Below are positions 10,142 through 42,505 of a stretch of DNA of 64,000 nt, one piece after another. The position numbers were made by a program, and so were the translations under genes. The DNA is from Liolophura sinensis (taxonomy: Eukaryota; Mollusca; Polyplacophora; Chitonida; Chitonidae), in assembly GCF_032854445.1 (NCBI RefSeq), contig NC_088299.1, forward strand, positions 1,277,001 through 1,341,000, read 5' to 3'. The notes under the pieces were generated by a model. It made no database searches. It was not told the DNA's origin and saw only the letters and a program-made list of their open reading frames with translations. The first letter of the stretch is position 1. Every line of letters begins with the position of its first letter.

Positions 10142-13100
10142 ATGAAGCCATCATTTACTCTGATTATATCGGGGTTGTTCGCTGCCTATTTAACACATTC
10201 TATTTGGACTATGTACACCTTGTTCCACCCATCCCAGTGCACAAGTCCAAAGCCTTGTCTGCAGCCATTCATTGCAAGCAAACCAGCATTGAAGGTGAAT
10301 AACTAAGACATATACATGTATATCTGTTCATTTCAAAAGTATAATACTGGAAAATGTTATACCATGAAAGAACCATAGAATTGAGCCATTTACCACATAC
10401 TAGTATCTCATCATTCTGTCTGGAATTTGTTTGCACTCATTGATCATGGAAATGTCTGAGCAACTTTTGTTAACATTTACCGTTGAAAAACCTAAAGTTT
10501 AAGCATAGCTTGCATCCACAAAAAAGTGTAACCATAGTCAGTTTGCATCCTTTTGTCTTGGAAAGGTCCAAGAAATGTTTGCATCCATTTATCACTGAAA
10601 TATCCGAGCAATGTGTGCATTAAGTTAGAATGGGAATATCTAAGCAATGTTTGCATCCATTTATCATGGTTAGTTGAAAGCAATGATTGCATCCTTTTCA
10701 AAAGGGAATTGCTTAAGCAATGTTTGTACACATTTATCATGAATAGATGAGTACAGTGTTTGCATCCATTTAACGAGGGTCATGTCTAAGCAATGTTTGC
10801 AAGGATGAAACATTTCTCTGCTTAAGTGAGATGAGGGGATCAGTGAATTATTTCCAGTTGTTAGTTTTCAGTTTGAAAGTTTGCCAACAAGAGCAATTGA
10901 AAGCCATGATGCATGGATATTGGTTTGTGTATCTGTGTTTCAAGGTACTGTTAAAATCCAATCATGTTGAAAACATTGCTTTTGAATGACAACTTTCTTT
11001 GAAAAGCCTGAGAGAGATGATTGCTTTGTAACTTGGCATCCCTGTAAAGAAATAGGTGATCTGACAATGACAGGTGATTTCACAGTTCACATGTTGTTGT
11101 GAATGTAAAACAGCTACAAGGATGCATTCAGGTTGAATCTGCTTCTTGCTTGTGGCTTTTGTTGACTCTGCAGTGACAATAAGAAATATCAGAAATGTTT
11201 CATCAGACATTGTGCAGTTTTAATATGTTACCTTCAGACTGGTTTTATTGATTTTGTAGATGCATGTTTACACATCTCAGACTAAGAACATTAGAGAGGG
11301 TAAATTGAATCTCGTCTGGCAATATGACAACTTTTCCATTGCTGTACCAGAGACCAGGTAATTGTACATGTGAGTTATGAGAATGCATAGTTGGTTAGCA
11401 TGTTAACGCAGCATAATGACCCAGAAGTCTCACCAGTGCGGACGCTGCGAGTTCAAGTCCAGCTCATGCTGTTTTCCTCTCTGGCCGTACATGGGAAGGT
11501 CTCCAGCAACCTACGGATGGTCGTGGGTTTTCCCCCGGGCTCTGCCCAGTTTCCTCCCACCATAATGCTGGCCACCGTTGTATAAGTGAAATATTCTTGA
11601 GTACGGCGTAAAACACCAATCAAATAAATATATAAATATAAGAATGCATGTGTTGCAATGTTTCACCCTAAGTTTGTACAGAATATGTATACTCCATCAC
11701 ATCAAGCAAATGCTTTCCATTTTGAACGTTTTACTCTGTAAAGTTTGCAGTATAATTTTGAGGGAACAAAGTCCTTTTTAAGGCCTTCCTTGTCTTTTGC
11801 TGGCTAGGGATAGATTTTGGTTTTAAACTGTATTGTATGTAAATTCCAGAGTAATTTTATTTCTTATGTACCATATCATAAATTTTTGACAGTATTATGT
11901 ACAGAACATTTTTATCTGTCATATTTGTCAAAAAATTTTCTGCCTCTTGTTTACAGAACATTCAATGTTAGTATTCCTGTGAAGACTCGCCAGAATGGAA
12001 CCTTATTTGCCCATGTGTTTGTGTTTCCTCGCGGAGAAAATCCACTTAGCTCTGTTCATCGATCTTATCAGTCATCAGCTCTGACAACATATACATATCC
12101 ACGGTCTCAAACCTTCAACCTTCTTACTGAGGATCAATCTGCAGTAAGTCTATACACACCCTCCGTCCCAAAACTTGACCTTCTCAGTGAGGATCATTCT
12201 GGGGTAAGTCTATACAAACCCTCAGTCCCAAAACTTGACCTCCTCAGTGAGGATCAATCTGGGGTAAGTCTATACACACCCTCAGTCCCAAAACTTGACC
12301 TCCTCAGTGAGGATCAATCTGGGGTAAGTCTATACACCCTCAGTCCCAAAACTTGACCTCCTCAGTGAGGATCAATCTGGGGTAATCTATACACACCCTC
12401 AGTCCCCAAACCTGACCTCCTCAGTGAGGATCAATCTGGGGTAAGTCTATACACCCTCAGTCCCCAAACTTGACCTCCTCAGTGAGGATCAATCTGGGGT
12501 AAGTCTATACACACCCTCAGTCCCCAAACTTGACCTCCTCAGTGAGGATCAATCTGCAGTAAGTCTATACACCCTCAGTCCCCAAACTTGACCTCCTCAG
12601 TGAGGATCAATCTGGGGTAAGTCTATACACCCTCAGTCCCCAAACTTGACCTCCTCAGTGAGGATCAATCTGGGGTAAGTCTATACACCCTCAGTCCCCA
12701 AACTTGACCTCCTCAGTAAGGATCAATCTGGGATAAGTCTATACACACCCTCAGTCCCAAAACTTGACCTCCTCAGTGAGGATCAATGTGGGGTAAGTCT
12801 ATACACGCCCTCAGTCCCAGAACTTGACCTCCTCAGTGAGGATCAATCTGGGGTAAGCCTATACACACCCTCAGTCCCAAAACTTAACCTTCTCAGTGAG
12901 GATCAATGTGGGGTAAGTCTATACACACCCTCAGTCCCAAAACCTAACCTTCTCAGTGAGGATCAATCTGGGGTAAGTCTGTATATACGCTCAGTCCCAA
13001 AACTTGACCTTCTCAGTGAGGATCAATCTGGGGTAAGTCTATACACCCTCATGAAACTTAACCTCCTCAGTGAGGATCAATCTGGGGTAAGTCTATACAC

Positions 13101-16100
13101 CCTCAGTCCCCAAACTTGACCTTCTCAGTGAGGATCAATCTGCAGTAAGTCTGTATACCCTCAGCCCCAAAACTTGACCTCCTCAGTGAGGATCAATATG
13201 GGATAAGTCTATACACACCCTCAGTCCCAAAACTTGACCTCCTCAGTGAGGATCAATCTGGGGTAAGTCTATACACACCCTCAGTCCCCAAACTTAACCT
13301 CCTCAGTGAGGATCAATGTGGGGTAAGTCTATACACACCCTCAGTCCCAAAACTTGACCTCCTCAGTGAGGATCAATCTGGGTTAAGTCTGTACACACCC
13401 TCAGTTCCGAAACTTGACCTCCTCAGTGAGGATCAATACCAGTGTGTCAGTGATACACATGCTTTAGCTTAGCCCTAAAACCTCAGGTGCCTTCACTGAT
13501 GATAAATCATCAATGTGTCAGTGACTGAGACAGTTTGTGAATGCATGACTCGTTGATCATAATTTTCTAATTATCAGTTTTCAGTATGAAATTTGGATTA
13601 ACTTTATGTCAGTATCTTGTGTTCTTGCTCAATGTAAGTATCAGAAAGTAAGACAAATCTGGTTGTTAACCGCAAAATTTGTATGTGAGAGTCTATAAAT
13701 GAGTACTTCTGTATTTTTTTTTTTGTTGGTTTTCATATTGTTCTCATCCTGTCTGTATTTGAATGCTTTTAGGTAAATGTAACAGAACCTGTGAAGATGA
13801 GGCCGGTGACTCACTGGAGACAGAAGCTTGCAATCTCTGTACTGGATGAAGAAGTGTCAATAGATCAGACTGCCATACCAGGAGAGATTTACCCACTCCT
13901 CAGGTGTGTTACAAGCTGACGTCTGCTACTAACAACTGACAGCTCTAAAACATCATATACCTGTGTGCATGTGCCTTCAAATCAGACTGCTAGCATCGGC
14001 TGACAGCGTGTGCTGCGGGCATTTGAATCAGATTCTCTCTGACATGGTCTTGCCATTATCAAGGATGTTTTATAAAGTACATGTTCGTACTTTCTCCTTG
14101 GCAGACCATTCAAATGTCTTGATTCAATGCTCTGCCGAATGATACCCGGTTTTCTGATATTAGTGAAAAAAGTACTTTCGGAAACAGGTACAGATTTTTA
14201 TTGGTTAAAGTGCAGGTGTGTCTTAATCATTATTCCCACAACTTTACACACAGTGTCGACTTCTGTCCCTCGCACGTCCCCGAAAACTGGCACCATTGAT
14301 TGCTCACAAGTTAACCATAAATAATCTCCAAACCCAATCTCCATCAAAGAATTCCTTAAAACTGGCCACATATTCACTTTCTTGCTTCGTTTAGAGCTGC
14401 GGCTGTCCTGTACTGTCACAGTAACAATGTGTTTCGTCTTACGATGGTACAGTCATTTCCATTGGTCTTTCTGGATTATGTTAATTGGTGATCTGTGTCA
14501 AATTTGTGTGTCGTTTCACCAGTGGTAGTAGATGGATGACTATTGTTCTGTACAAGAGGAGAGTATCAAGTACTGTTCTAGTGGAAGTGTGATAGCTAGT
14601 TCGGGAATCGCATTCTCTTCCTGACCCAAAACTAAAAACTGTAAAGTTACCAAAACTAATGAAATCCACTTGTATCCCTGCAGAAAAAACCACATTGAAA
14701 TTAATATTTTTATTTTAATAGAATATACCTTGCTCAAGATTATTGAAGTTATGAACAGGAAATCACCAAAATGTATTTTATTTGTATTAAAACCTTGACT
14801 TGAAGCCACAAATGTGAGGTGATTCTCATAAGGCAGATTTACCGGAATCGATATATAGATGTATATTATCATTGAGGTAATGTTTATGGTGGAACCCACC
14901 CTTCAGTAAGAAGTCATAAATGTTACGGTTGTATTGTAAAGTTATTTATGGATTGTTATGCTACTTTTAAACAGAACTTGATATTGAAATCATCTTGTGC
15001 TTAAACATGTTAGATGATAACTTGACAAAATGAGGTACACTGTGATGCTGAAAGGGCGCAGACACATCGTTAAGGGTGCTTGCTTCTCAATTTCTATCAG
15101 GGGGGCCTCCGTGGCTCAGGTGGTTACCATGCTAGCGCAGCATAATGACCAGGAGCCTCTCACCAATGCGGTTGCTGTGAGTTCAAGTCCAGCCCATGCT
15201 GGTTTCCACTCCAGGTGAACGTGGGAAGGTCTGTCAGCAACCGGTGTGCCCGGTTTCCTCCCACCATTTTGCTGGCTGTCGTCATATAAGTGAAATATTC
15301 TTGAGTATGGCATAAAACACCAATCAAATAAATATATAAATATAAGAATGCAATTGTTGCAATGTTTCACCCTAAGTTTGTACAGAATATGTATACCATT
15401 AATTTCTATCACACATGATGTGCTTGTTGGAAGCTTAAATCAACGATTGCATTGTCTAAAGTTCAGTAAAACTTGGTCAGTAACTTTACTGCACGCACTG
15501 CTGTTTCCTTTATACATAAAGCTGACTGCCAGCATATAAATGAAAATGAAAGAGTCCGGCGAGGTTTAAGCAACAATCAGAAACATAAGTTAAATGAAGT
15601 TGAAAGGCAGATCACTGATATAAAAAGAGAATATTTAGGAACACATTGTCATGATCATGTATCTTGTTTCAGTATGTCTCGAGATGGCAGCTACTTGCCT
15701 GTACTCTACATTGATGTGCTGAGTAATAGGGTACGAGATTTAACTGTAAGTGGTTATATTTGAAAGTATTTTTGTTTTGTTAAAGGACAAGACAGCACCC
15801 GGCTAAAACATATTTCAATCGAAAGCAGGATACTCAAGCTTTCTAAAAAGTATCATACTTTATTATTTTCATGACATTTCACTGAATAACATGTGGAAGA
15901 AAATGATAATACTGCACAAATGGCCAATGTACATGTAGCCAAAGGGCCCTTTCACAAGGTGTTGTGACTAACATATATTCAGCGATAGCATACCTTATCA
16001 GCCCAAACCGCATTCATCTCACCGAATACATTTTCAGTGATGATCTTTCAGTGGATATAAAAATTAGTCAGGTGCTGTCTTTTATTTTAAGATAGAGTTT

Positions 16101-19100
16101 TCCATTAATTTACTATTTGGGAACTATGGAAAGCCTACTTACATTTGGACTCAGACAGATAGTCATAACAAACTCCTTGCTACACACATTCTCACCTGCA
16201 TGCATACTCGTACAGAAAGCCGTAACAAACTCCTTGCTACACACATTCTCACCTGCATGCATACCCCTACAGAAAGCCGTAACGAACTCCATGCTACATT
16301 TTCACCTGCATGCATACTCCTACAGAAAGCCGTAACAAACTCCATGCTACATTTTCACCTGCATGCATACTCCTACAGAAAGGCGTAATGAACTCCATGC
16401 TACATTTTCTCCTGCATGCATACTCCTACAGAAACCGTAACGAACTTTTTGCTACATTTTCACCTGCATGCATACTCCTACAGAAAGCCATAACGAACTC
16501 CTTGCTACATTTTCACCTGCATGCATACTCCTACAGAAAGCCATAACAAACTCCTTGCTACACACATTTTCACCTGCATGCATACCCCCTACAGAAAACC
16601 ATAATGAACTTGTTGCTTCTCACATTTCCACCTGCATTCACACTCCTACAGAAAACCATAATGAACTTGTTGCTTCTCACATTTCCACCTGCATTCACAC
16701 TCCTACAGAAAACCATAATGAACTTGTTGCTTCTCACATTTCCACCTGCATGCACACTCCTACAAAAAGCCATAAAGTACTTATTACTTCTCACATTTCC
16801 ACCTGCATGCATACCCTTACAGAAAACCATAATGAACTTGTTGCTTCTCACATTTCCACCTACATGCACACTCCTACAGAAAACCATAATGAACTTGTTG
16901 CTTCTCACATTTCCACCTGCATGCATACTCATACAGAAAACCATAATGAACTTGTTGCTTCTCACATTCCCACCTGCATGCATACCCTTACAGAAAACCA
17001 TAATGAACTTGTTGCTTCTCACATTTCCACCTGCATGCACACTCCTACAAAAAGCCATAAAGTACTTATTACTTCTCACATTTCCACCTGCATGCATACT
17101 CATACAGAAAACCATAATGAACTTGTTGCTTCTCACATTTCCACCTGCATTCACACTCCTACAGAAAACCATAATGAACTTGTTGCTTCTCACATTTCCA
17201 CCTGCATGCACACTCCTACAGAAAACCATAATGAACTTGTTGCTTCTCACATTTCCACCTGCATGCATACCCTTACAGAAAACCATAATGAACTTGTTGC
17301 TTCTCACATTTCCACCTACATGCACACTCCTACAGAAAACCATAATGAACTTGTTGCTTCTCACATTTCCACCTGCATGCATACTCATACAGAAAACCAT
17401 AATGAACTTGTTGCTTCTCACATTTCCACCTGCATGCATACCCTTACAGAAAACCATAATGAACTTGTTGCTTCTCACATTTCCACCTGCATGCACACTC
17501 CTACAAAAAGCCATAAAGTACTTATTACTTCTCACATTTCCACCTGCATGCATACTCATACAGAAAACCATAATGAACTTGTTGCTTCTCACATTTCCAC
17601 CTGCATTCACACTCCTACAGAAAACCATAATGAACTTGTTGCTTCTCACATTTCCACCTGCATGCACACTCCTACAGAAAACCATAATGAACTTGTTGCT
17701 TCTCACATTTCCACCTGCATGCATACTCATACAGAAAGCCATAATGAACTTGTTGCTTCTCACATTTCCACCTCCACAGAAAGCCATAATGAACTTGTTG
17801 CTTCTCACATATCCACCTTGCTTCTCACATTTCCACCTCCACAGAAAGCCATAATGAGTATGTCACTTCACATACAAGTATCTGCAAGTGGGCAAACATT
17901 TTGCTTAAGGTATTTTATAGGTTTAACTTGTGATAATCCTGAGCCTAGTTTCCAAAGCTTTTATTACAGAAAGAAAAAAAGAAAATGAAACATATGCACA
18001 AACATTTCGCAAAACATTGAACAAAACTTAACTATATCAGACATCAGCTACAAGTTATGGCAAATTCCACAGGCGCCCATAACCATATCTGATGGAAGAT
18101 ATCCCTAACCATCTTTAGCTATCATGTATCATTAAGGCAATATTCTATATCAGACAGAAGATATCTATAACCGTCCGCTACATGTATCATTAAGGCAACA
18201 TTCTATATCAGATGGAAGACATCCATAACCGTCCGCTACATGTATCATTAAGGCAACATTCTATATCAGACAGAAGATATCTATAACCGTCCGCTACATG
18301 TATCATTAAGGCAACATTCTATATCAGATGGAAGATATCCAACCCAGTATTTATCTGTAAATTAAACAATATTCTATAACCGCTGAATTATGGTTTACCC
18401 TCAGCATATACATGTACATATGCAAACTTAGGTATATCGCATCATTATCTTTGCAAAAAAAACAGCTGAAGATATGGACAAATTTAACCTGTCTCCTGCG
18501 AAAGTACAGACTTGCAGGACTACACACATCTAATCCTACATGTCTCCTGCGAAAGTACAGAGCTGCGTAAATATGCGTGCTAGAATTTAGGAGACCTCAC
18601 CTTCATTCTTTAGTAGCCTGCTAACCCCTAAGATCATCACCGAATAAAGAACGTCAAAAAAAAAAAAAAATTTGAATCCTATGTAATGACAACAATATGC
18701 CATTTGAAAATAGTGTCATGTGACATCTGTGCTTTTGATGGAACATGTGTTTAGCCCTGTGTATTTTGTAGACTGGAATTAGTGAGTTATTGTTGACTCA
18801 AAGCTGATATCTGTGTTGATAAATCTTGTGGTAGGGTTAGCATTCAAAATGAGCTGAGGCCTCCTTGGCTCACTTGGTTAGCGCGCTAGCACAGAGTAAT
18901 AGCGGTCACTGTGAGTTCAAGTCCAGCTCATGCTGGCTTCCCCTCCGGCCGTACGTGGGAAGGTCTGCTGCCAACCTGCAGAATGTTGTGGGTTTGCCCT
19001 GGGCTCTGCCCGGTTTCCTCCCACCATAATGCTGGCTGCGGTCGCATAAGTGAAATATTTTGAGTATGGCGTAAAACACCAATCAAGTAAATAAATCAAA

Positions 19101-25100: not shown

Positions 25101-28100
25101 ATTTAAATACATAATTATACCATCTTTTCACTCAATACGTGAACTAAAGGGCCGCAGGAGTGGGTGGTAGCAAAGTAGTTAAAGTGCTTGCCTTTAGTTC
25201 CTTGGACACATAAGGTGTGGGTTCAAACCCATCCTTGAACACATAAGGTGTAGGTTCAAACCCTTCCTTGGACACATAAGGTGTAGGTTCAAACCCATTG
25301 AACAAATAAGGTGTGGGTTCAAACCCATCCTTGGACACATAAGGTGTAGGTTCCTCTTGGCCCTGGGGATAATGCTTGTGGGATCGTTTGCAGAATAAAA
25401 CTGTTGTTGAAGACGACTTCTCCTCCGCTTGTAGGGTGTACATATCTGTATGTCATATCTGTATGTGAGAAACTGTGTCATAACTTGCCAAAGGTCAGTG
25501 GTTTACCCTGAACACTACTGTTTCCCCCATTCATAATACTGACCAGCATTGCTTCTTCACATGCACACTGTCAGTGCTATTCATCTCTTCACAGGCCATA
25601 AAGCACCTGAACTGTGTGCTGCATTCGCTGTGCCTAATCTGGAGCAGTCTGTTCTCTGTTATACCTCCAGTACACGCTTGTCTGACCTGTCAGTGCTCTT
25701 CATCTTTTCACAGGCCATGAAATACCTGTCCAATGTGCTGTATCCACTGTGCCTAGCTGGAGCAGTCTATTCTCTGTTATGCCTCGAGTACTCACTTGTC
25801 TGACCTGTCAATGCTCTTCGTCTCTTCACAGGCCATGAAATACCTGTCCTATGTGCTGTATCCACTGTGCCTAGCAGGAGCAGTCTATTCCCTATTATAC
25901 CTTCAGTACAAAAGGTTGGTTTACTGTCTTAGCTATTCCAGTATTTTAGGCCTTTTGGTTGTTAGCAGTGAATGAAGTAAGTATATGTAAGGAGCTGAAA
26001 TGAATGTACAAAACTTTAATCACTTGAAATCCTAGCATTGAAAGTAAACGTTTGAATAGTTTAGTTCATCATGTGGTTTTTTAGTCTTTCATACTTCATG
26101 TGACATCAGAAAATGTTATATCTATTCTTTATGCCATTCACTGAACAGCGGTCGCATTACACCTGTGAGTTATTTAGCTTGCAAGGTTAAAGACTAAAGT
26201 ATGAGTACAACAGTCCACTCATTTTAATGTATCAATTTCTCATCTTTAGCTCTGATAATGTAATCTAAGCTGATGTGTAGTTTTTGTTTTCTTGTAGCTG
26301 GTATTCATGGTGTATAAACAGTCTAGTTAACGGTGAGTCCTGCATACTGATCAAAGATATTAGCTACAGAAATATCTCACTTTTGCCCGAAGACATAAAA
26401 AGTGAAACATATCAAGTTTAGAAGATGACAGGAAACATGGCGGTGACAATATTACCTGGTCGTGTTTATGATATGAATGCTTGTGTCATTGTCATACATG
26501 TACCAGACATCCACCTTCATGTTACATGTCACACAACGAAGAATAAGGTCATTTGTCTGGACAATAACTTGGACTTTTTCACATGCATTCAGACATCTCA
26601 TATATTTTTGCATAAAATAAAATGTGCACTGCAGCCATCATTTCCTGGTAGTTTAGTTTTGCCCCGAAAATATTCTTGAAAACGGTGATGGATTGCGTTG
26701 AAACTGTTAAAGTGGGCCATGGACTAGAAAATTGGAGTGGTGATGGAGCAATAAAATAAAAATGAACTTTGTATGCGTTTTAAAGTATCAAAAAGGTGCC
26801 ATTCCATTTCCTGAACTAAGCACAATTGTGATGGCAAATTATCAGTGAATAATTGTAAACAAACAGTAAATAACAACTATGGAGGAGCAAGTGTAATTTT
26901 TTGCATAAGCAGTAATATTCTATTGACCTGATTTTTTTGGCTCTGACATTTATAAGTATAATTATCAGTATAACAGAAAAAAGATATGAATACAGAGTTA
27001 TTTTATGTTCTGGTCTTTGTTTACTTTTCAGGTGTTTATGCATTTGGATTTTTGTTCATGCTGCCACAGCTGTTTGTAAATTATAAGGTATGGAAAATAA
27101 GCGGGGCAAAAGTGGCAATACGCTTTTAACTTAAATGTGACCTGTAAATTTGTACATTTAATTTGGATGCATAGAAGCATAAGGGAACTTCATCATTCAG
27201 ATTCTTTATGTGAAATGCCAAAGACAAAAATTACAGAAGACTGACACTTTATGATGGCTCATAGACATGGATTGTGCAGTTCGCTGTTTTATAATAACAT
27301 TGTGGACTGATGTAAGTTGACGGAGGTCTAAAATAGTATAAAGCGCAATACGATGCTTGTGCCTTGGCACTGGACTAATTTCATTGGCTAGGAAAGTTAT
27401 AGTGCACATACCAAAGTGCCAGAGTTTACCTGGGATCTCTCACCATCAAAGCTGACTGTGTTTAAGAGAGGGCTAATTTTCTATAGTGTTCAGAGAAATT
27501 CAGACACTGGTATATCTGGATAAATATAAAAGGTAAATAAACTTAACTTTAATGTATATTTTGATTTCAGTTAAAATCTGTGGCACACCTGCCCTGGAGA
27601 GCATTCATGTATAAGGTAAGTAACTGATGTCTGTGTACAGCTCTATGTAAGGCTGTATAAGGTGGTTCAGTGCCAGCCTGCAATGTAGGACTGGCCATGT
27701 AGGACTGGCCTTGTAAGACTGGCAATGTAGGACTGGCCATGTAGGACTGGCCATGTAGGACTGGCAATGTAGGACTTAGAATCCCTGTATCAGGACTTGG
27801 TAGCAATAAGGCGTGGGCAGCACTGACAGATCCTACATGTAGACTGTGCAACTTTACAGAAGACAGCTTGCCAAAGTTTCATCACCCTCTTGCCAGTGCC
27901 CCATGGTTTCCTCCACACCTAAAACTTACATTTCCTAAGGAAAATATCATAGAGCATTCTTAAAGGTACTATGTGACATTTGTCAGAAAATGTGCAGACC
28001 TCAGGACTTTTTGTCCCTGTTTTACCTAACAACCAACCCATCAATGTAACCTTCAAAAAACCTGGAATTATACAGATACTGTCCCTTATAAACAGGCATA

Positions 28101-37271: not shown

Positions 37272-37611
37272 TAACATTCTGAGATACTTCCACAATCATT
37301 CAGTGTCAAGACTATCACATTCCCGTGTCTTAATACGGGGAGAGATACTTTCACAATCGTTCACCGCCAAGACTATCACATTCCCGTGTCTTAATACGGG
37401 GAGAGATACTTCCACAATCGTTCATTGTCAAGACTATCACATTCCCGTGTCTTAATACGGGGAGAGATACTTTCACAATCGTTCATTGTCAAGACTATCA
37501 CATTCCCGTGTCTTAATACGGGGAGAGATACTTTCACAATCGTTCATTGTCAAGACTATCACATTCCCGTGTCTTAATACCGGGAGAGATACTTCCACAA
37601 TCGTTCACCGG
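37272..37611. repeat. 60/61-bp minisatellite, block 1
   Basis: About five to six units of 61 bp: CAATCGTTCATTGTCAAGAC, then CACATTCCCGTGTCTTAATA, then a GGGGAGAGATACTT type end. The same unit resumes after 37948 and after 42080, so one ancestral array has been split by insertions. Confidence 0.92.
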
Positions 37612-37948
37612 ATCAGATGGCTCGGTAGCGCGTCCGCTTCGGGGCCGTAGACCCAGGGTCATTCCTGGGTCAGATCACACCTAAGACCCTAACAGAGGAA
37701 GGTGTAGCTTCTTCGCTTGGCATAGTGCAACGACTGGTTGACCCGTATCAGTAAAATTTCTTGGATGAGGTTGCTTACTCGCCTTCGCTTAGTCGTCTCA
37801 GTAAAGCAATACTAGATAAAAGAGCAATGGAAATCCGTCCTACAAGGAGACACGTTACACGTACATACACTCTAAGGACTCGTTTGTCGTCATAAGACTC
37901 AAAAATTGTTGAGTACGACGTTAAACCCTAAGAACTGACTCACAATCG
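37608..37948 (+). mobile_element. Diverged SINE-B inserted into the minisatellite
   Basis: Head GATGGCTCGGTAGCGCGTCC, B-box-like CGTAGACCCAGGGTCATTCC, SINE-B body with small deletions, and 3' domain to GTACGACGTTAAACCCTAAG. CACAATCGTTCA, part of the minisatellite unit, is present on both sides (37596-37607 and 37941-37952), as expected for insertion into the array. Confidence 0.9.
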
Positions 37949-38256
37949 TTCAACGTCTAGACTTTCACATTCACGTGTCTTACTACCGGGGGAGAGACTT
38001 CCACAATCGCGTCAATGTCAAGACTTTCACACTCCCTTGTCTCAATACCGGGGAAGACACTTCCACAATAGTTCACTGTCAAGACTCTCACATACGCGTG
38101 TCTTAATACCAGGGGACCCACTTCCACAATCGTTCACCGTCAAGACTTTCACACTCCTGTGTCTTAATACCGGGGGAGGTACTTCCACAATGGTTCGCCG
38201 GTCAAGACTCTCACACTCCCGTGTCATAATACCGGGGGAGACACTTCCACAGTTGT
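37949..38256. repeat. 60/61-bp minisatellite, block 2
   Basis: About five diverged units of the same array (CTTCCACAATCGTTCACCGT, then CACTCCTGTGTCTTAATACC). It is interrupted in mid-unit at CTTCCACA by the LINE. Confidence 0.9.
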
Positions 38257-42084: not shown

Positions 42085-42505
42085 CCACTGTTCACTGTCA
42101 AGACTCACACCCCCGTGTCTCAGTACCGGGGGAGATACTTCCACGATCGTTCACCTTCAAGACTTACACTCCAGTGTCTCAATACCGAGGGAGACACTTC
42201 CACAATCGTTCATTGTCAAGACTTTCACACCCCCGTGTCTCAGTACCGGGGGAGATACTTCCACGATCGTTCACCGTCAAGACTTACACTCCCGTGTCTC
42301 AATACCGAGGGAGACACTTCCACAATCGTTCACCGTCAAGACTTACACTCCCGTGTCTCAATACCGAGGGAGACACTTCCACAATCGTTCACCGACAAGA
42401 CTTACACTCCCGTGTCTCAATACCGAGGGAGACACTTCCACAATCGTTCAATGTCAAGACTTTCACACCTCCGTGTCTCAATACCGAGGAAGACACTTTC
42501 GCTAT
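42085..42505. repeat. 60-bp minisatellite, block 3
   Basis: Seven units of 60 bp (CTTCCACAATCGTTCACCGT, then CACTCCCGTGTCTCAATACC). It is the continuation of the array at 37272-38256. All three forward frames are open only because the unit is 60 bp. Confidence 0.93.

Follow-up and report, generated by a model that had tools for sequence, protein, structure and literature searches.

Tandem repeats lying across an exon-intron boundary have been called mirages, a name given to those of the lancelet Adh3 gene before others were found at both exon edges of globin genes (PMC3087553). In the accessible passages of the lancelet reports, mirages differ in length between haplotypes, with no effect on regular splicing reported (PMC3087553), splicing is given as normal for the Adh, TnC and globin cases (PMC3087553, PMC3902484), and repeats of 60 and 108 bp are described at splice sites of PGBD5 (PMC3902484); the authors of the globin study allow that the extra sites could be used as cryptic ones (PMC3087553). 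In human, intron 18 of ABCA7 holds a 25-bp variable number tandem repeat that starts with the exon 18 donor (PMC5954066), and internal tandem repeats at the exon-intron boundaries of duplicated genes can create novel introns, according to the parts of that report available (PMC2812944). Here we describe an array of the same kind in a mollusc. In a stretch of 64,000 nucleotides from the chiton Liolophura sinensis (NC_088299.1, positions 1,277,001 to 1,341,000 of the forward strand; hereafter the window, by whose own numbering positions are given), the end of a coding exon of a CLPTM1L-like gene and the start of its intron are repeated in an array of 23 copies. The array is a mirage, and exon-edge arrays are common in the sampled part of this genome.

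The locus shares with the lancelet mirages (Adh3, TnC, BflGb6, BflGb9 and PGBD5) minisatellite-like boundary repeats with AG or GT in many of the units and arrays on both sides of exons, and the unit sizes overlap, those given in the available text being 10–72 bp for Adh3, 150–160 bp for the globins and 60 and 108 bp for PGBD5 (PMC3087553, PMC3902484). It differs from them in its mollusc host, in its 23 copies, in three exact units that are in frame and open, and in a native donor that is weaker than its copies; normal splicing is reported for the lancelet genes. As in ABCA7, the array starts at the donor that ends the preceding exon, with one more donor in each unit, retention of one unit being an observation made in ABCA7, where it amounts to 2 ± 1% regardless of repeat number; the true rate may be higher, since the retained product is subject to decay, and skipping of exon 19 rises with array length (PMC5954066, as far as its accessible sections go). 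The 25-bp ABCA7 unit starts at the GT, with no exon tail described in those sections, and one unit shifts the frame, while the CLPTM1L unit is mostly exon tail and would add 20 residues in frame. The human boundary repeats (PMC2812944) are likewise exon-edge minisatellites able to give alternative splicing, but they are reported to make novel introns, and none is evident in CLPTM1L: an intron gain of the Rogers type is not needed, since a single intron can take in the whole array and the frame remain open.

No exon-edge array in a chiton or other mollusc was present in the literature searched, whose scope mostly did not extend to subscription papers. In the abalone TSSK1-like gene, intron 3 holds a 27-bp minisatellite of variable length, which the available part of the report does not describe as crossing an exon edge (PMC6905558), and the passages checked on clam hemoglobin genes (PMC4732748) and cone-snail genes (PMC3862624) hold nothing similar. 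A study of intronic minisatellites and alternative splicing in C. elegans (PMC4039745) was set aside, its accessible text being about motif content and not about exon-edge arrays.

Structure of the array and of its host gene

Tandem Repeats Finder (TRF) identified at positions 12128–13437 a repeat of period 60, with 22.2 copies and 92% matches. Counting of the core motif gave 23 copies head to tail, the first of them exonic, in agreement with the number proposed by the first-pass annotation of the window; the spacings between successive cores are 60, 60, 60, 58, 59, 58, 60, 58, 58, 58, 60, 60, 60, 60, 60, 54, 58, 58, 60, 60, 60 and 60 bp. The features of the array and of the exons flanking it are the following (a slash marks the exon-intron boundary).

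11957–12143, + strand: CLPTM1L exon preceding the array (exon 3 of the first-pass annotation); acceptor TTTACAG before 11957, open frame, 3' end in phase 0, donor GCA/GTAAGT; PF05602 match at 11949–12149
12090–12143, + strand: exonic repeat copy (copy 0), putative source of the unit, by local alignment
12144–13437, + strand: intronic array, 22 further copies of 54–60 bp each, by TRF and core spacing
12144–12323, + strand: three 60-bp units, in frame and open (one 20-residue unit and two near-copies of it), between the donors 12144, 12204, 12264 and 12324
12354–12356, + strand: in-frame stop, included by every donor-place from 12382 on (open reading frame 11814–12356)
13773–13903, + strand: next exon (exon 4 of the first-pass annotation); acceptor TTTTAG/GTAAATG, donor at 13904

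In the local alignment, positions 8–58 of the consensus unit corresponded to exon bases 12090–12141 with a score of 58, the best score in 1000 shuffles being 35, and unit positions 1–7 (GTAAGTC) are those of the intron start. By this alignment the unit is thus made of the exon tail (about 54 bases) and about 7 intron bases, as the first-pass annotation had read it. Its further statement that nearly every unit carries its own GTAAGT was slightly too strong, the full motif being present in 17 of the 23 copies and any GT at the donor place in 19. Mean identity between units is 0.92 for neighbours and 0.91 for non-neighbours; that of the exon copy with the other copies is 0.64–0.74.

The whole assembly (609,464,459 bases in 632 contigs) was searched with the array unit, only the best candidates being scored, so that counts are lower bounds: at least 11 matches were obtained, and all those listed lie within the CLPTM1L array. 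A dispersed repeat or transposon as source of the unit was rejected on these grounds.

The joined exons match the Pfam family PF05602 (CLPTM1 family) with an E-value of 3.7e-91, and the gene is CLPTM1L-like. Its naming as CLPTM1L rather than CLPTM1 is our own assignment, the copy on another contig (C6) being taken as CLPTM1. A residue-pattern search upstream found no CLPTM1L exon 5' of position 11957, and the designation "exon 3" is therefore only the numbering of the first-pass annotation. Searching the PDB with the CLPTM1L sequence gave nothing meaningful (best E-value 1.8).

Reading frame and protein consequences

Donors 12144, 12204, 12264 and 12324 and the acceptor 13773 are where the first-pass annotation had placed them. 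All four donors are in phase 0 to the acceptor, and joining to the next exon leaves the frame open; the first units are indeed exactly 60 bp long and in frame, three of them being open, and the arithmetic by which their use would add 20, 40 or 60 residues and join exon 4 in phase 0 is correct. From donor-place 4 to donor-place 22 (12382 onward), all products would carry a premature stop through 12354–12356.

The fit of the joined exons to PF05602 was 306.7 bits with no insert and 299.0, 295.7 and 295.3 bits with 20, 40 and 60 added residues, respectively, the match with 60 residues being split into two stretches; the inserts thus cost 7.7 to 11.4 bits out of 306.7. Judged from the family profile, the first GT of the array (12144) appears to be the junction of best fit. 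Since the family fit is best when the insert is lacking and the loss with it is modest, 12144 has the look of the conserved junction, and the insert seems tolerable.

Exon-edge arrays in the sampled genome

The survey covered all listed exon matches to two protein domains, namely 81 to myosin heads (the best 65 of 213 candidates scored) and 132 to kinesin motors (the best 122 of 207). The resulting 213 matches were taken as three samples, 53 in 12 regions, 84 in 24 regions and the remaining 76 with 370-base flanks; the first two samples are biased to regions with several closely spaced exons, and one of the 213 segments is a copy inside an array (L030). Arrays crossing an exon edge, as judged by eye, were found at 17 of the 213 exon matches (8%; 6, 5 and 6 per sample). 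Twelve are on the donor side (L019, L016, L013 twice, L010, L030, L035, L038, L095, L098, L056 and L110), L098 being a thin case with about 6 exon bases in the array, and five on the acceptor side (L015, L024, L037, L059 and L046), a difference that is not significant (two-sided binomial p = 0.14). Arrays near an edge, roughly 10 to 60 bp off, were excluded from the count; these concern 12 loci (both arrays of L017, L018 and L020, three of L022, one of L033, and those at L080, L089, L074, L076, L100, L027 and L044).

Placement was evaluated on 132 of the 137 segments of the first two samples, leaving out the 76 of the third, for arrays of period ≥20 and with 2000 random circular shifts within each region. 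The five segments dropped were four matches longer than 400 bases, which probably hold an intron, and the second match of L030, the copy inside the array. Edge arrays numbered 11, with 10.6 ± 2.9 expected under random shifts, while arrays inside or over whole exons numbered 0 versus 13.6 expected; as the test gives counts alone, we equate its 8 donor and 3 acceptor cases with the ones identified by eye. The birth of arrays thus seems blind to exon edges, with removal from exon bodies and tolerance at the edges. Because edge counts equal the random expectation and arrays in exon bodies are absent, we favour the reading that the array is a tolerated by-product and that 12144 serves as the main donor; splicing mainly from 12144 to 13773, with minor in-frame leakage, is given a probability of about 0.7.

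Donor strength

The relative strength of the donors weighs against this reading. On a human-style donor matrix, the authentic donor 12144 (GCA/GTAAGT) reaches 6.0, as against 9.2 for the copies at 12204, 12264 and 12324 (GGG/GTAAGT); since the authentic donor is the weaker, it is position, and not sequence, that would have to favour 12144. Fourteen donor arrays were compared in this respect, the 12 of the survey together with those of CLPTM1L and of its paralog CLPTM1. Two of them (CLPTM1L and a kinesin exon, L038) have a first extra unit that is open and preserves the frame, about 1.6 such arrays being expected by chance (1.56, or slightly more if missed copies are included), and the frame is broken in the other 12; the text patterns used to find donors missed 12204 (+60) in CLPTM1L and a few weak copies elsewhere, which leaves the frame classes unchanged. 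In none of the 12 frame-breaking arrays does a pattern-found copy outscore the authentic donor, whereas in both in-frame open arrays a copy does so (2 of 2 versus 0 of 12; 1/91 = 0.011), and the coincidence of stronger copies with exactly these two arrays could mean that the copies are used. The pattern was noticed after 10 of the 14 arrays. The four arrays added later conform to it without exception and are all of the frame-breaking class, so that the in-frame side rests on two cases, and by a plain count, made by eye, of matches to CAG/GTAAGT the kinesin case becomes a tie. The pattern works against calling the CLPTM1L array simply inert, and some use of 12204 and beyond is plausible, given that copies outscore the native donor in the in-frame open arrays.

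Other arrays and repeats

CLPTM1L bears a second exon-edge array, on the acceptor side.

25568–25910, + strand: second exon-edge array of CLPTM1L, acceptor and exon start, 118 bp × 2.9, by TRF; exon copies start at 25595, 25714 and 25832
25832–25914, + strand: functional exon of the second array, by its translation; donor at 25915

When translated, the two upstream copies of this array run into stops. Taken together, the array unit holding both exon and adjoining intron sequence, the GT kept in many but not all units (19 of 23) and the involvement of both exon edges within CLPTM1L (donor side at 12144–13437, acceptor side at 25568–25910) are the traits of a mirage.

The paralog CLPTM1 (C6:2709455–2710170, across the end of L008 and the start of L007) has an independent donor array, with units of 42 and 28 bp and 17 extra donors whose nine bases are the same as those of the authentic donor. 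Since an in-frame stop lies among the first added codons, any extra donor would truncate the protein, and the first CLPTM1 donor must therefore win.

Some of the surveyed arrays have features of their own. At L015:1445–2805, in a myosin gene, a 32-bp unit with the acceptor TTTGTAG/GTTTGAGCG is present in about 43 copies directly 5' of the exon. The kinesin donor array at L030:1987–3972 has a 73-bp unit in more than 20 copies, and near its far end the exon piece occurs a second time in a longer copy, which points to nested duplications. At L095:432–935 a myosin exon end is repeated four times in 124-bp units with 97% matches, and this array is apparently young. The neighbouring myosin exons of L010 (C1:26642195 and C1:26643291) match the profile at 118–152 and 121–152, the pattern expected of alternative exons.

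In the window, an intron of CLPTM1L contains at 16177–17773 a 57-bp minisatellite of 28 copies that has three long open frames (515, 435 and 430 aa), two of them forward and the third reverse; these long frames are probably an accident of a unit length divisible by 3. Related minisatellite units of 59–61 bp at 37281–37607, 37941–38251 and 42090–42498 suggest, from their likeness, that one array may have spread. An element resembling a short interspersed element lies at 15100–15345, with the tail ATATTCTTGAGTATGGCATAAAACACCAATCAAATAAATA, and similar translated pieces were observed elsewhere in the window. Elsewhere in the assembly, eight units or domains of the mollusc-type hemocyanin are found in one cluster, which points to a mollusc; amphioxus, considered as source on account of its mirages, was rejected, although a search for GFP-family proteins had no match either here or in the control genomes.

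Discussion

The array may have started from a tandem duplication with breakpoints at about 12090, in the exon, and about 7 bases into the intron, producing a 60-bp unit with its own donor, which unequal exchange or slippage would then have expanded to 23 copies into the intron. As the original exon and donor are intact, we infer that 12144 to 13773 is still the main junction of the gene, the copies leaving with the intron; a minor share of the mRNA probably gains 20 (or 40, or 60) residues, since the first three units keep the frame open and have donors stronger than the original. The CLPTM1L array would be one of many mirages in a minisatellite-rich chiton genome, which may arise regardless of gene structure and persist where the full exon and the original splice site are spared.

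The same array could also be completely inert, with 12144 alone in use and exon definition picking the donor beside the full exon whatever its score. CLPTM1 and the other frame-breaking arrays presumably work in this way, several of them with identical downstream donors, and normal splicing is reported, in the passages available, for the lancelet mirages of the Adh, TnC and globin genes (PMC3087553, PMC3902484). However, the native CLPTM1L donor is weaker than its copies, the second donor of ABCA7 is used at a low level (PMC5954066, accessible sections) and the globin paper itself, in its available part, allows a cryptic-site action of extra sites (PMC3087553); we thus regard full inertness as rather unlikely.

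The first-pass annotation had seen in the array a natural candidate for length-variable isoforms. In its full form this would be an isoform generator, in which regular use of later donors lengthens the luminal domain by 20, 40 or 60 residues, donor strength and copy number setting the proportions. The anatomy and the phase are right for it: there are three exact units, in frame and open, with donors stronger than the native one (9.2 versus 6.0), in-frame units go together with stronger copies also in the only other in-frame open array, that of the kinesin exon, and the inserts cost only 7.7 to 11.4 of 306.7 bits. In ABCA7, moreover, one unit can be retained and exon 19 skipping rises with array length (PMC5954066, in the sections available). 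On the other hand, edge arrays are frequent, lie where random placement puts them and mostly break the frame, those in frame and open being no commoner than chance (2 of 14 versus about 1.6), and ABCA7 retention is low (2 ± 1%) and independent of array length (PMC5954066, same sections). A device of this kind is consequently unlikely. As regards donor choice, the related suggestion of a splice-site competition whose strength depends on repeat number has the accessible account of ABCA7 against it, one-unit retention there being independent of repeat number, although exon 19 skipping rose with it (PMC5954066).

A wider and more speculative reading, which we put forward with considerable doubt, would see the chiton exon-edge arrays as live splicing contests sorted by selection on the frame. 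The guard of a strong authentic donor would be kept where the copies break the protein and lost in CLPTM1L and one kinesin exon, where the copies would be used; CLPTM1L would then make a series of proteins with 20-residue luminal inserts, in a mix varying with the copy number of the individual.

That donors, or the transcription and splicing machinery, promote the birth of arrays at exon edges is very unlikely: donor-side arrays outnumber acceptor-side ones 12 to 5, and CLPTM1L has two edge arrays and its paralog at least one, but the edge counts equal those of the random-shift null and the donor/acceptor difference is not significant (p = 0.14). Tandem arrays are error-prone in assembly, but an array or copy number produced by misassembly is hardly credible here, as the copies differ (mean adjacent identity 0.92), the same kind of array occurs at many independent loci and, according to the accessible part of its report, the published assembly, described as Liolophura japonica, was made from PacBio HiFi reads with a mean length of 8,347 bp at 14X, longer than the 1.3-kb array (PMC11068029).

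Splicing mainly from 12144, with leakage into the first copies, remains for us the preferred account of the CLPTM1L array, and the exon-edge arrays of the chiton are probably for the most part harmless by-products. Arrays of this type have been documented so far in lancelets and, singly, in human genes. In each of them a splice site competes over a short distance with copies of itself, many of them identical to it or stronger, as in an experiment set up by nature; those of the chiton thus bear on how the authentic site comes to be chosen by the splicing machinery, and on the neutrality of minisatellite births at exon edges.

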